64,000 nt of DNA from Nakamurella panacisegetis (GTDB lineage: Bacteria > Actinomycetota > Actinomycetes > Mycobacteriales > Nakamurellaceae): assembly GCF_900104535.1 (NCBI RefSeq), contig NZ_LT629710.1, positions 3,941,501 to 4,005,500 on the forward strand. Reading direction: 5' to 3'. Positions 19,334 to 26,620 of this stretch are shown here, piece by piece. Each line of letters opens with the position of its first letter. The first letter of the stretch is position 1. A model generated the notes under the pieces. It made no database searches. It was given only the letters and a program-made list of their open reading frames with translations, and had not been told where the DNA came from. The position numbers and the translations under genes were made by a program.

Positions 19334-19760
19334 TTGAGCGATTCGATGGCGTTGGTCGAGCAGATGACGGTGCGGATCTCTACGTCGTAGTTCCAGGAAC
19401 TCCGATGAACTCCGCCCAGGCGTTGTCCCACAGCCGGATCAACGCTGGGTACCGCTTGCCCCACCGCTCCGCCAGGTCGTCCAACGCCGCTCTGGCCGCG
19501 GCGGCGTTCACCGCGGTGTAGATGGGTTTCACATCCCGCCTCAGCGCATCCCAGTCCTTCCGGGAAGCCAGGCGGAACGTGTTGCGGATCAGGTGGATGA
19601 TGCATGTCTGGACCGCGGTCAGCGGCCACACGCTCCCAACGACCTCTGGTAGGCCCTTCAGGCCGTCGCAGACCAGGAAGAACACGTCCTTCACGCCGCG
19701 GTTGCGGACGTCGGTGAGCACGCCCATCGGAGAACTTGGCGCCGCCGCGACACTGGCTGA
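19324..19760 (-). pseudogene. IS256-family (Mutator) transposase fragment
   Basis: MGVLTDVRNRGVKDVFFLVC, CDGLKGLPEVV and TCIIHLIRNTFRLASRKDWD are the central IS256 block. After about WAEFIG the match continues in another frame (NYDVEIRTVICSTNAIESLN), so there is a frameshift near 19395. The gene is truncated at both ends. Weak homology (GAKF) continues to ~19760 into the start of the GIY-YIG frame. Confidence 0.8.
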
Positions 19761-20389
19761 TCTTCATGGCCGACGGCGGTCGACGGTCCCGGCTGCTTGT
19801 CGCCTACGAAAACCATGGCGAGGTGCTGTCCGAGCGCACCAGCACCTCCAGGTACTTCGACCTGCAGCCGTCCGGACTGCTGTCGGCTCTGATCGGCCGA
19901 CTGGTCGTGGAGTGGTCGACCGACACCATCAACTGGCGCAAGAGCGGGCACGCCGCGGCAGTGCTGCCCATCATCGAGATCGCCGACCCGAAAGTGGTCT
20001 TGTTCCCAGGGTTCGACCGGGTGCTCATCACCTACGCCGAACTGCAGTCGGTGATCTCAGACGCCCGATATGGCGGGTGGCGCACTGCCCTTGGCTCCGT
20101 GCAGGGGATCTACCTGATTGCCGACACCAGCACCGGGCAGCTCTACGTCGGCAAGGCCGACGGGGGAGAGAGGATCCTTGGCCGCTGGTCGGCGTACGCC
20201 CGAGATGGCCACGGCGGCAACATCGCACTCAAGGAGCTGACTGGGCTGAACTCCGCGCACGCTGCCCATTTTCAATTCAGCATCCTGCGGGTCTTCGGGC
20301 CGAGCGTGCCTTCCGCAGAGATCGACGAGGCGGAGTCCCATTTCAAAGATGCGCTGTTGACCCGTCGGTACGGGCTGAACCGGAACTAG
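19736..20389 (+). CDS. GIY-YIG nuclease family protein, probably 5'-truncated
   Basis: 217 aa. The C-terminal half is a GIY-YIG domain: GIYLIADTSTGQLYVGKADG, then GRWSAYARDGHGGN, and a likely catalytic Glu in EIDEAESHF. The N-terminal half (YENHGEVLSERT, FDLQPSGLLSALIGRLVVEW) is typical of a group of uncharacterised actinobacterial proteins and seems to begin abruptly at the IS256 fragment, so the original start is probably lost. ATG 19736 or 19766 could still start translation. Role unknown; phage defence or DNA repair are possible but unsupported. Confidence 0.7.
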   Translation: MAPPRHWLIFMADGGRRSRLLVAYENHGEVLSERTSTSRYFDLQPSGLLSALIGRLVVEWSTDTINWRKSGHAAAVLPIIEIADPKVVLFPGFDRVLITYAELQSVISDARYGGWRTALGSVQGIYLIADTSTGQLYVGKADGGERILGRWSAYARDGHGGNIALKELTGLNSAHAAHFQFSILRVFGPSVPSAEIDEAESHFKDALLTRRYGLNRN

Positions 20390-20680: not shown

Positions 20681-20880
20681 TCAGCCGCCGTCTTCGTCTA
20701 GAGCCGAGCGTAGCTCTCTCAGGTCCTGCTCCAGCTGCGCCACCCTAACGGGATTGCGATCGCCCACCGGCACCCCCAGTACGGCGTTGGCCTGGGACGT
20801 ATCGAATACCAATGGCGGTCTGGCCAAAGCCCTCAACAGCTCGTCACGCTCCGAGTAGGTCCAAACGGCCTGATCAACTA

Positions 20881-22003
20881 GTGTCGCGTTAGCGATATGG
20901 CTTTACTTATTGGTGGGTTTCTGGGAGAATGGCGCATGCCCAGAAACCCGGTCCCGGTGGTGTCCGACTCTGATCGTGCGGTGATGGAATCCTGGCTGCG
21001 AGCACCCAGCACGCCGGCGGGTCTGGTCAGGCGAGCCCGGATCGTGTTGCTGGCCGCCGAGGGCCTGGGCACCAACGACATCGTGGAGCGGGTCGGGGCC
21101 ACGAAGCCGACGGTGATCGCGTGGCGGAACCGCTATCTGGCTGAGGGTTTGGCCGGTCTGGACGATCGGGACAAGCCCGGCCGGCCCGCCCAGATCGACG
21201 ATTTGGACATCGTCAACGCCACCCTGGCGCCGCCGCCGGCGGAGCTGGGCATCACCCACTGGTCCAGCCGGATCCTGGGCAAACAGCTGGGCATCTCCAA
21301 CGTCACCGTCGCCAAGATCTGGAAGCGGTGGGGCCTCAAACCGTGGAAGTTGGAGACGTTCAAGTTCTCCACCGACCCGGAACTGGAGGCCAAGGTCCGC
21401 GACGTCGTCGGGCTGTATCTCGACCCGCCGGAGAAGGCCGTCGTTCTCTCCATTGACGAGAAGTCGCAGATCCAAGCACTGGACCGGACCGCGCCGATGC
21501 TGCCGATCCGACCAGACCTGGCCCAGCGGTGGACCCACGACTACAAACGCAACGGCACCACCACCTTGTTCGCCGCGTTGGAGATCGCCACCGGCAAGGT
21601 CACTCAAGCCTGCTATCCCCGCCATCGCTCCGATGAGTTCCTGCTGTTTTTGAAGAAGGTCGTCAAGGCCTACCCCCGGATCGATCTGCACATCGTGGTC
21701 GACAACTACGCCACTCACAAACATCCAACCGTGAACGCCTGGCTGGCCAAGAACCCGCGCGTGACACTGCATTTCACCCCGACCTCCGGATCGTGGATGA
21801 ACATGGTCGAGATCTTCTTCGGCATCATCACCCGCCAAGCCATCCGCCGCGGCGTCTTCCACTCCGTCACCGAACTCCAAGCCGCCATCACCAGATTCAT
21901 CGACGCGTGGAACGAGAACTGCCACCCGTTCACCTGGACCAAAACCGCAGACGAAATCCTGCCCCACGCCACCGGAGGTCAAAGAACATCATTCACGCGA
22001 CAC
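20881..22003 (+). mobile_element. Complete IS630-family element
   Basis: 1123 bp bounded by terminal inverted repeats starting GTGTCGCGT and flanked by TA at 20879-20880 and 22004-22005. IS630 elements duplicate TA, preferably within CTAG; the empty site reconstructs to CTAG. The transposase is intact, so the insertion looks recent. Confidence 0.92.
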
Positions 22004-22006
22004 TAG
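20936..22006 (+). CDS. IS630-family transposase
   Basis: 356 aa, complete. The N-terminal helix-turn-helix (GTNDIVERVGATKPTVIAWR) binds the ends; the DDE catalytic domain has Asp in SIDEKSQIQAL, Asp in VVDNYATHK and Glu in SWMNMVEIFF. ATG 20936 follows GGGAGA; an in-frame ATG at 20897 has a weaker context. The last sense codon is CAC at the element's end, and the stop TAG is TA (target copy) plus the flanking G, so termination depends on the insertion site. Confidence 0.93.
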   Translation: MPRNPVPVVSDSDRAVMESWLRAPSTPAGLVRRARIVLLAAEGLGTNDIVERVGATKPTVIAWRNRYLAEGLAGLDDRDKPGRPAQIDDLDIVNATLAPPPAELGITHWSSRILGKQLGISNVTVAKIWKRWGLKPWKLETFKFSTDPELEAKVRDVVGLYLDPPEKAVVLSIDEKSQIQALDRTAPMLPIRPDLAQRWTHDYKRNGTTTLFAALEIATGKVTQACYPRHRSDEFLLFLKKVVKAYPRIDLHIVVDNYATHKHPTVNAWLAKNPRVTLHFTPTSGSWMNMVEIFFGIITRQAIRRGVFHSVTELQAAITRFIDAWNENCHPFTWTKTADEILPHATGGQRTSFTRH

Positions 22007-22226
22007 ATCCCGGTATTGGATTCCGCGGAGGACTGCCTCCAGCAAGCCAAGTCGGAGCAGATTTTGGCTACTCTGATTCATGTTCCTCATCTGTCAACTA
22101 TAGGTGGCCAGTCAAGACGCAACCAGGTGCTCGACCCGCAGTAGGGACCGTCGGATACATTGACACGCGTACGTCTGAGTCACCCCGGCATGTCCGGACA
22201 CTCCTCTTGTTAGGAAAGATGGAGTC

Positions 22227-22549
22227 ATGGCGAGTACGTCGAAGCGGTACCCGGCCGAGTTGAAGGACCGGGCGGTGCGGATGGTGGCGGAGATCCGGTC
22301 CGATCATGGGTCGGAGTGGGCGGCGGTGGAGTCGGTCGCGGCGAAGTTGGGGATCGGGACTGCGCAGACGGTGCAGAACTGGGTCCGCCGCGCCGAGGTC
22401 GATGCCGGCAAACGGCGGGGGTGTCCTCCGAGGCGGCGGAGGAGCTGCGGAAGTTGCGGGCGGAGAACCGAGAGTTGAAGCGGGCCAACGAGATATTGAA
22501 GTCGGCGTCAACTTTTTTCGCGGCGGAGCTCGACCGCCGACAGAAGTGA
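22227..22549 (+). pseudogene. IS3 orfA with single-base frameshift
   Basis: Encodes the helix-turn-helix part ([38 protein letters not shown]). The frame breaks in a run of five G at 22417-22421; adding one G restores [20 protein letters not shown] and the leucine-zipper tail to the TGA at 22547-22549. TTTTTTC (22513-22519) is the expected slippery site for the orfA-orfB fusion. Confidence 0.8.
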
Positions 22550-23475
22550 TCATCAGCTACATCGATCAGCACAAGGCGGAATACGGCGTCGGGACGATCT
22601 GCCGGGTGCTCACCGAGCACGGCTGCAAGATCGCGTCGTCCACCTACTACGACCGCACCCACCAGCAGCCCTCCGCCCGCGCTGTCCGGGACGAGGCGCT
22701 GTCCGCGCAGGTCAGTGCGGTGCATGCGGAGAACTACGGCGTCTACGGGGCGCGGAAGGTGTGGTTGACGCTGAACCGGGAAGGCACCGCGGTGGCCCGG
22801 TGCACGGTGGAGCGGCTGATGCGCCGGCTCGGTCTGGTCGGGGCTCGTCGGGGCAAGGTCAAACGCACCACTATCGCCGACCCGCAAGCGCAACGGGCCA
22901 GTGATCTGGTGGATCGTCATTTCGACCCGGAGGCGCCAGATCGCCTATGGGTGGCCGACTTCACGTATGTTTCGACGTGGTCCGGGTGGGTGTACGTGGC
23001 GTTCGTGATCGATGCCTACTCCCGTCGGATCGTGGGGTGGCGATCGGCGACCACGATGACCGCGCAACTCGTCCTGGACGCCATCGAGCACGCGATCTGG
23101 ACCCGGCAACGTGAAGGGGTGCAGGACCTTTCGGGGCTGATTCACCACAACGACCGCGGATCTCAATATACGTCTGTGGCGTTCACCGAGCGGCTGGCCG
23201 ACGCCGGCATCGACGCCTCCGTTGGTCGCACCGGGGATAGTTTCGACAATGCTCTGGCCGAGACGATCAACGGGCTCTACAAGACCGAGCTGATCAAGCC
23301 CCGCGGCCCGTGGCGGACCGTCGAGCAGGTCGAAGTCGCCACCCTGGAATGGGTCGACTGGTTCAACCACCGCCGCCTGTACGAGCACAACGGCGACCTC
23401 CCACCGGTCGAACTCGAGCAGGCCCACTACGCTCAAATCAGAGCCCAGCAAACCGCTGCGCTCTCAAACCCGTAG
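22546..23475 (+). CDS. IS3-family transposase orfB (DDE integrase core)
   Basis: 309 aa from GTG 22546, which overlaps the orfA stop; normally made as a -1 frameshift fusion at TTTTTTC. Catalytic residues: Asp in [11 protein letters not shown], Asp in [11 protein letters not shown], Glu in [17 protein letters not shown]. The HTH_21-like block [17 protein letters not shown] precedes them. The catalytic frame is intact, but with orfA broken the fusion protein cannot be made from this copy unless the G-run is a sequencing error. Confidence 0.9.
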
Positions 23476-23496
23476 GTGTCCGGACATGCCGGGGTG

Positions 23497-24530
23497 GTTC
23501 AAGGACCTCAGCCGCCGAACTAGCGGGTTCATCAACCGAGCCAACGCCGCCGACGGGGCCGACCGCCGGTTCTACGACCGCGCCGCGCAGGTCGACTGCA
23601 GCGGTAACGTCCGGCACAAGCCCCCGAGCCACCAGCGGTGGAAGTTCGGTGACCGCCGCACCAGCGGACACACTGCAGGCGGGGAGCCGGACCGCGCTGG
23701 TGGTGCTGGCACAGTTGAAGGTCAAGGGGCGGGCCCCGATGACCGGCTACAGCCGGACGCAGTTCGGTGCCGCGTGGACGGACGCGAACGATGATCTTCT
23801 GGGCCACAACGGGTGCGACACCCGCAATGACATCCTGGGACGGGACCTCACCGGCGTCGTCTACAAGGCGGGCACCCGGAACTGCACAGTGCTGACCGGG
23901 ACTCTCACCGATCCCTACACATCCCGGATGATCCCGTTCATCCGCGGCGCCGGCACCTCCACCGCCATCCAAATCGACCACGTGGTGCCGCTGGGGGACG
24001 CCTGGCAGACGGGGGCGCAGAGTCTGACTGTTCGGGTCCGCACTGATCTGGCCAACGATCCGTTGGAGTTGCTGGCCGTGGACGGGCCGACCAATGAGGC
24101 GAAGGGCGACGGGGACGCGGCTACGTGGCTGCCGCCGAACAAGGCGTACCGGTGTGCGTACGTGGCGCGGCAGGTCGCGGTCAAGGCCCGTTACGGTCTC
24201 TGGGTCACCTCGGCCGAGCACGACGCCATCGCTGGGGTATTGAGTAGCTGTCCCGCGCAAACGGTGCCGGCCGAGGCTGGTGCCCCGCCGACGGCGACGG
24301 TGGCCGCGACTTCGTCGCGGCCCAGCACCACACCGCCCCCGTCCACCACGGTTGCCCCGCCGCCCGCGCCACGAGTGAGCTCATCCGCAGCCGCCCCCAC
24401 ACCGACGCCGACCCTGCCGGAGGCCCCCGCTGGGGCAACGGCGAAATGCAACGACGGGACGTACTCGTTTGCCGCGCACCACCAAGGTGCATGCTCGCAC
24501 CACGGCGGCGTCGCCATCTTCTACAAGTAA
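23497..24530 (+). CDS. HNH (DUF1524-type) nuclease with DUF3761 tail, 5'-truncated by IS3
   Basis: About 345 codons remain. A Ser/Thr/Pro/Ala-rich linker is followed by the nuclease domain: MTGYSRTQFGAAW, GCDTRNDILGRDL, then IQIDHVVPLGDAW with the catalytic His and NDPLELLAVDGPTNEAKGD. A second Pro/Thr-rich linker leads to a C-terminal DUF3761-like module (CNDGTYSFAAHHQGACSHHG). Homologues are secreted, so a signal peptide was probably encoded where IS3 now sits. The first in-frame start after the IS is a GTG near 23649. Export is therefore doubtful in this copy. Confidence 0.82.
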
Positions 24531-25495: not shown

Positions 25496-26620
25496 TCTAG
25501 ATGTTGTACCCCCGGAGGTTGGTGACACGCCGAGGTGACGGGGTTCCGGGGATGGGTGAGGGTCCCCTGGTGTGGTGTGAAGCGACCAAGCAATACACCA
25601 GAACCACGCAGGAGACCCTCGTGTCCCACCGTAACGCCCCGCTGACCGCGGAAGGCCGCCGACGCCTGTGCGAGCGCGTCGATTCTGGCCGGCCGATCTG
25701 CCACGTCGCCGCCGAAGCCGGCATCGCCCGGCAAACCCTGGCGAAGTGGCATGCCCGGTGGCGGGAATGCGGCCTCGACGGTCTGCACGACCGGTCCTCC
25801 CGCCCTGCGTCGTGTCCGGGACAGACCGACCCGCAGATCGAAGACTTGGTCGAGTACCTGCGGCGTAGCATGAAGCTCGGGCCGGTGATGCTGACCGCGG
25901 AGCTCGCCGAGTTCGGCATCACGATGCACGCCTGGACGGTGCACCGGATCTTGGTGCGGCGGGGCGTGTCCCGGCTGGCGGACCTGGACGTCACCGGAGC
26001 CGACCTGCGGCAGCAGCCCAAAAACCGGTACGAGCATCCGTTGGCCGGTGACCTGGTGCACCTGGACGTGAAGAAGGTCGGCCGGATCCCCGACGGCGGC
26101 TGGTGGGCGCACGGCCGCGGCAGCGTCGGACACAAGAAGTCCCAGCGCCGTCCGCGGATCGGGTACTGCTACCTGCACACCGCGATCGACGACCACTCCC
26201 GGCTGGCCTACACCGAGGCACTCGACGACGAGAAGGCCGTCACCGCAGTCGGTTTCTGGCTGCGGGCAAAGGCGTTCTTCGCCGCCCACGGCATCGAGAC
26301 GATCCGCCGGGTGCTGAGCGACAACGGCTCCTGCTACCGCTCCCGCATCTTCAACGCCGCCCTGGCCGACGATGCGATCACCCACAAGTACACCCGGCCC
26401 TACCGGCCGCAAACCAACGGCAAGGTCGAGCGGTTCAACCGCACCCTGGCCCAGGAATGCCTCTACGCCCGCGCCTGGAACAACGACCAGGAGCGGATCG
26501 CGGCGATACCGGGGTTCCTGCATCGCTATAACTACCATCGACCGCACACCGCACTACGAGGCCTCCCGCCGATCCGCCGGACTCAGGTCGTCACCAACCT
26601 GTCGGGGTTCAACATCTAGA
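25496..26620 (+). mobile_element. Complete IS481-family element with TCTAGA target duplication
   Basis: The element is 25502-26614 (1113 bp); ends TGTTGtACCCC and, inverted, TGTTGaACCCC, each followed at the same spacing by GGTTGGTGAC. TCTAGA flanks it on both sides (25496-25501, 26615-26620), matching the 6-bp NCTAGN duplication known for IS481. Confidence 0.93.
25621..26619 (+). CDS. IS481-family transposase
   Basis: 332 aa, intact. Two N-terminal helix-turn-helix units (HVAAEAGIARQTLAKWHARW, HAWTVHRILVRRGVSRL) and an integrase core with Asp in LVHLDVKKVGRI, Asp in VLSDNGSCYRS and Glu in TNGKVERFNRTLAQE. GTG 25621 follows AGGAGA. The final codons are AAC ATC TAG, with the stop lying in the TCTAGA target duplication, not in the element. 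Confidence 0.93.
   Translation: MSHRNAPLTAEGRRRLCERVDSGRPICHVAAEAGIARQTLAKWHARWRECGLDGLHDRSSRPASCPGQTDPQIEDLVEYLRRSMKLGPVMLTAELAEFGITMHAWTVHRILVRRGVSRLADLDVTGADLRQQPKNRYEHPLAGDLVHLDVKKVGRIPDGGWWAHGRGSVGHKKSQRRPRIGYCYLHTAIDDHSRLAYTEALDDEKAVTAVGFWLRAKAFFAAHGIETIRRVLSDNGSCYRSRIFNAALADDAITHKYTRPYRPQTNGKVERFNRTLAQECLYARAWNNDQERIAAIPGFLHRYNYHRPHTALRGLPPIRRTQVVTNLSGFNI

Follow-up and report, generated by a model that had tools for sequence, protein, structure and literature searches.

An IS630-Family Insertion Most Likely Inactivated a Gene for a Putative Free-Standing GyrA C-Gate in Nakamurella panacisegetis

In the genome of Nakamurella panacisegetis, an insertion sequence of the IS630 family interrupts what is, with high probability, a small gene for an orphan homologue of the GyrA C-gate, and the resulting allele is most likely null. 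As reconstructed here, a cut-and-paste element would have entered a CTAG site, duplicated the TA and split a 91-codon gene on the minus strand after codon 26. All positions are given in the window, that is, the whole stretch of 64,000 nucleotides that was analysed.

Structure of the Insertion and Its Target Site

The element, its transposase gene and the two halves of the target site were located as follows.

20881-22003, plus strand: IS630-family insertion sequence of 1123 bp with the ends GTGTCGCGT.../...ACGCGACAC, defined by terminal inverted repeats and by NF033545 and DDE_3 in its open reading frame
20939-22006, plus strand: transposase of 355 aa from the likely start MPRNPVPVV (369 aa from 20897), placed by the list of open reading frames, by tblastn and by a CAC/TAG end as in four relatives
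20878-20880, no strand: left half of the target site, C plus the target TA (20879-20880), read from the sequence
22004-22006, no strand: right half of the target site, the second TA (22004-22005) plus G, read from the sequence

The element is complete, and it sits in a CTAG site of which the TA is duplicated. Its termini consist of nine perfect bases, GTGTCGCGT, followed by an imperfect continuation; the inverted repeats characteristic of the IS630 family were found as 19-nt arms that are 84% complementary when the CTA flank is counted in. The characteristic target was found as well, with CTA before the element and TAG after it. The transposase is of the IS630 DDE type, as indicated by the match to NF033545 (E 3.5e-75, score 253 against a cut-off of 100) and by the PF13358 DDE_3 domain (E 7.7e-19). 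The NF033545 match and the CTAG/TA target bear out the original prediction of an IS630 insertion. The transposase frame lacks its own stop and is closed by the TAG at 22004-22006, made up of the duplicated TA and the target's G. All four plasmid relatives examined have the same CAC/TAG end, and their left end carries CTA. Among plasmids, the closest relatives are IS630 elements of Rhodococcus/Dietzia, with about 57-60% protein identity over 96-98% of the length in tblastn. In the complete 5.01-Mb genome the element is present in a single copy, and the next best matches are 73% identical.

Excision of 20881-22003 together with one TA joins 22081-22004 (26 codons) to 20878-20681 (65 codons and the stop) on the minus strand, and the joined frame runs without interruption for 91 codons from ATG to TGA (94 codons from an alternative start three codons upstream). 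The predicted coordinates of this excision were thus found to be exact. The target duplication can be read as TA or as CTAG (4 bp), and the empty site, which before the insertion would have read ...AACTAGATCC..., is identical under both readings.

The Disrupted Gene

The two pieces of the gene flank the element.

22004-22081, minus strand: N-terminal 26 codons (MNQSSQNLLRLGLLEAVLRGIQYRDL) with the start ATG at 22081-22079, assigned from the joined frame and the homologue alignment
20681-20878, minus strand: C-terminal 65 codons and stop of the disrupted orphan C-gate gene (VDQAVWTYSERDELL...DEDGG), assigned from the joined frame and its match to the Nakamurella aerolata homologue beyond the joint

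The joined protein, MNQSSQNLLRLGLLEAVLRGIQYRDL followed by VDQAVWTYSERDELLRALARPPLVFDTSQANAVLGVPVGDRNPVRVAQLEQDLRELRSALDEDGG, has 91 residues and is split after residue 26. An open frame of this kind is not significant by itself, since about a third of random flanks carry one: of 400 random sequences generated with matching first-order composition, 33.5% had a frame of 91 codons or more that began with ATG and ran across the joint. The frame could therefore be accidental and its 91 codons meaningless, if the element had struck DNA that was non-coding or out of frame, and the third-position GC of 0.67, which is moderately above the whole-gene mean of 0.60, would also fit such an origin. The intact homologue makes this very improbable and in practice refutes it. 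A database search with the 91-residue protein, proposed along with the original prediction, returned an uninterrupted 89-aa protein of N. aerolata that is 36% identical over its full length (E 9.1e-11 in the genome search and 9e-13 in tblastn). Both pieces match, and no gap interrupts the alignment between the third and the penultimate column; at the joint, YRDL/VDQ of the window protein (the slash marks the joint) stands opposite YRTLVDD of N. aerolata. Because an intact homologue spans the joint without a gap, the joined frame is more than chance, and the claim that excision exactly restores a real gene is upheld. The N. aerolata protein also belongs to a wider structural family, described below. 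It lies at another, non-syntenic place, and it is from this homologue that we infer the ancestral state at the locus.

A relative as close as that of N. aerolata was absent from all other genomes of the genus that were searched, and the scan of the genome contigs with the 91-aa protein gave N. aerolata as the sole match. In plasmids, phages and viral contigs, the same search gave no relative.

Relationship to the GyrA C-Gate

The window protein itself has no GyrA match in Pfam or NCBIfam, so its link to the C-gate runs through the N. aerolata relative. The latter matches positions 332-408 of PF00521, in the C-terminal part of the GyrA/ParC family, weakly (E 0.09). A profile built from the two proteins was compared by hhalign with a profile of the C-gate family, composed of GyrA C-gates, GNAT-fused C-gates and other small orphans. 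The score was 45.2 (E 3.8e-8); 150 column shuffles reached at most 17.3, and the reversed profile scored 15.8. With GyrA as the only target, the score was 24.0 and the shuffle maximum 17.5. A PDB sequence search with the two-row profile gave no match.

The AlphaFold model of the N. aerolata homologue, calculated from the single sequence, has a pLDDT of 84.9. In its entirety it can be superposed on GyrA C-gates (TM 0.82-0.86 and rmsd 1.6-1.8 Å for the best matches) with a VIA Z of about 13 on GyrA residues about 367-466, values that are to be read with the fact that helical folds easily give middling Z and that the Foldseek E-values of the model do not fall below 0.001 (best 0.045). All of the PDB matches listed for this model are GyrA/ParC, and the identity of the homologue to gyrase A chains is only about 16-22%. 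The matched region of GyrA comprises the C-gate and the adjoining coiled coil, that is, the helical exit gate of the enzyme (PMC6078968, PMC6286129). The sequence profile and the fold of the modelled homologue support the assignment of the disrupted gene product as a free-standing homologue of the GyrA/ParC C-gate, the helical domain that sits at the tip of the coiled coil and mediates dimerisation. The assignment applies to this domain and not to whole GyrA: the protein has about 90 aa and contains no winged-helix catalytic core, tower or C-terminal domain. The original prediction had noticed a faint GyrA/ParC likeness in the C-terminal charged helix. The likeness holds and is much stronger by profile and fold, whereas its restriction to that helix does not, since the whole protein corresponds to a C-gate domain.

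Distribution of Orphan C-Gate Proteins

Orphan C-gate proteins occur patchily in related bacteria. Besides N. aerolata, similar orphans of 85-97 aa were found in three genomes of the genus (G001, G003 and G013) and, outside the genus, in three more (G044, G017 and G406). In the four orphans that were scanned, GyrA models match only at positions about 364-445 and far below cut-off. Among the NCBIfam and Pfam models searched, none is specific to this family. No conserved neighbour was seen beside those orphan genes that were inspected, and the literature search found no paper on orphan C-gate proteins, which is not proof that none exists.

In mycobacterial-type genomes (family f7 of the order; loci L018 and L035-L051), a GyrA C-gate domain stands in front of a GNAT acetyltransferase-like domain. 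In the phylogenetic tree, the window and N. aerolata proteins are grouped with support of 98/96, apart from gyrA, which forms a single group (99/96). The deep branching order is poorly supported, and the window protein has a long branch (2.13 vs 0.8 for its relative). Order-wide matches of the two-row profile had E-values of 0.0006-0.008, and those that were read mostly look like chance, with the exception of the GNAT-fused C-gate at L018. A further match in G011 (E 3.5e-6, in a 232-aa frame) is doubtful as a member of the family.

Genomic Neighbourhood

A second insertion sequence lies next to the disrupted gene and is not part of the IS630 event.

22176-23501, plus strand: IS3-family element with rve and HTH_21 domains, present in 7 genome copies

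This element is situated 94 bp upstream of the start codon of the disrupted gene, and it may cut off the promoter. Six of its seven copies are about 100% identical, and near-identical copies point to recent transposition in this genome. Elsewhere in the genome, a truncated IS630 relative (L004, G000:C1:3919279-3919692) abuts an IS3 copy exactly and was apparently cut by it.

The stretch of the window from 19 to 27 kb is a transposon-rich island. It also contains a remnant of a Mutator/IS256-type transposase at 19380-19727 (minus strand) and a complete IS481-type transposase at 25501-26619 (plus strand). Two other genes were observed in this stretch: 19736-20389 (plus strand) encodes a 217-aa protein with a weak match to GIY-YIG nucleases (E 0.013), and 23640-24530 (plus strand) encodes a protein with GmrSD_C (restriction endonuclease C-terminal) and DUF3761 domains.

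Effect and Age of the Insertion

The N-terminal piece of the gene now runs four codons beyond the joint and then stops (RDLVSRE and a stop codon), which gives a stub of 30 residues. Apart from an internal TTG, the C-terminal piece lacks a start upstream. Since only these two remnants of the gene are left, the insertion would most likely have inactivated the orphan C-gate gene.

The gene might already have been a decaying pseudogene when the IS630 element arrived. The long branch of the window protein is compatible with this, as are the nearby IS3 copy, the transposon remnants that fill the neighbourhood and the lack of a close relative in most genomes of the genus. However, the 91 codons contain no stop or frameshift, the length agrees with that of the other orphans, and the protein pairs with an intact orphan of another species and not with gyrA. 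We regard prior decay as improbable.

The event had also been predicted to be recent. As judged from the sequence, it probably is, and this fits an element that is undamaged, ends included, an intact target duplication and two gene halves that carry no further stop or frameshift; the open frame, which had been taken as a sign of recent insertion, is not itself evidence of age. The insertion is not datable, because no strain with an empty site was found and because a cut-and-paste element leaves no sister copy for comparison.

Possible Role of the Intact Protein

The intact orphan may mimic a C-gate by dimerising. It could do so as a dimerisation module put to new use, or it could contact GyrA or the ligands that the gyrase C-gate binds; for this last step of the mechanism the odds are well below even. 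One possibility, to which we assign rather less than an even chance, is that the C-gate was reused as a dimerisation module for a purpose that has no connection with gyrase, on the pattern of the GNAT fusions. The occurrence of the C-gate domain in front of an acetyltransferase-like domain in mycobacterial-type genomes favours such reuse, although the window and N. aerolata proteins lack a second domain that could be dimerised. A role as decoy or antagonist of gyrase, in which the orphan would pair with the GyrA C-gate or bind its ligands, such as CcdB-type poisons, is conceivable since GyrA14, the isolated C-gate fragment of E. coli, binds CcdB (PMC8814602; complex with CcdB, PMC6078968). The C-gate fold of the N. 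aerolata model is in line with this role. However, no toxin or defence partner was seen beside the orphan genes inspected, and the low identity of the homologue to gyrase A chains makes heterodimerisation doubtful. We consider the decoy role unlikely, and plain reuse of the dimerisation module is at least as likely.

More speculatively, free-standing C-gates could form a patchy actinobacterial family whose members modulate gyrase or protect it against C-gate poisons, and of which the copy described here would have been lost recently to a transposon; we think this broader proposal rather improbable. The insertion is routine. It uncovers, in the orphans, a family of small proteins that correspond to the gyrase exit gate and nothing else. 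An essential antibiotic target would have natural regulators in the orphans if these pair with GyrA or bind poisons of gyrase; otherwise, a part of a topoisomerase would have been reused as a dimerisation module.

Comparison with Known Systems

The element is an ordinary member of the IS630 family within the IS630-Tc1/mariner superfamily. It shares with IS630 of Shigella sonnei and with ISY100 a single DDE transposase, short terminal inverted repeats, TA duplication and a preference for CTAG, which is credited for IS630 to Tenzen & Ohtsubo 1991 as cited in PMC2170065, and it shows no essential difference from the family. The supply of the transposase stop by the TA and G of the target is also already known, from IS870, a different element; according to the title of Fournier et al. 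1993, as cited in PMC6471742, its stop codon is generated by the CTAG target.

The GNAT-fused proteins of mycobacterial-type genomes resemble the orphans in having a C-gate domain outside gyrase, but their domain is joined to an acetyltransferase-like one and they occupy a separate branch of the tree. Compared with GyrA/ParC, the orphan is free-standing, has low sequence identity and lacks the winged-helix, catalytic tyrosine, tower and C-terminal wrapping domains. Its likeness is to GyrA14 and the ParC C-gate, which the profile matches and on which the N. aerolata homologue superposes as a whole.
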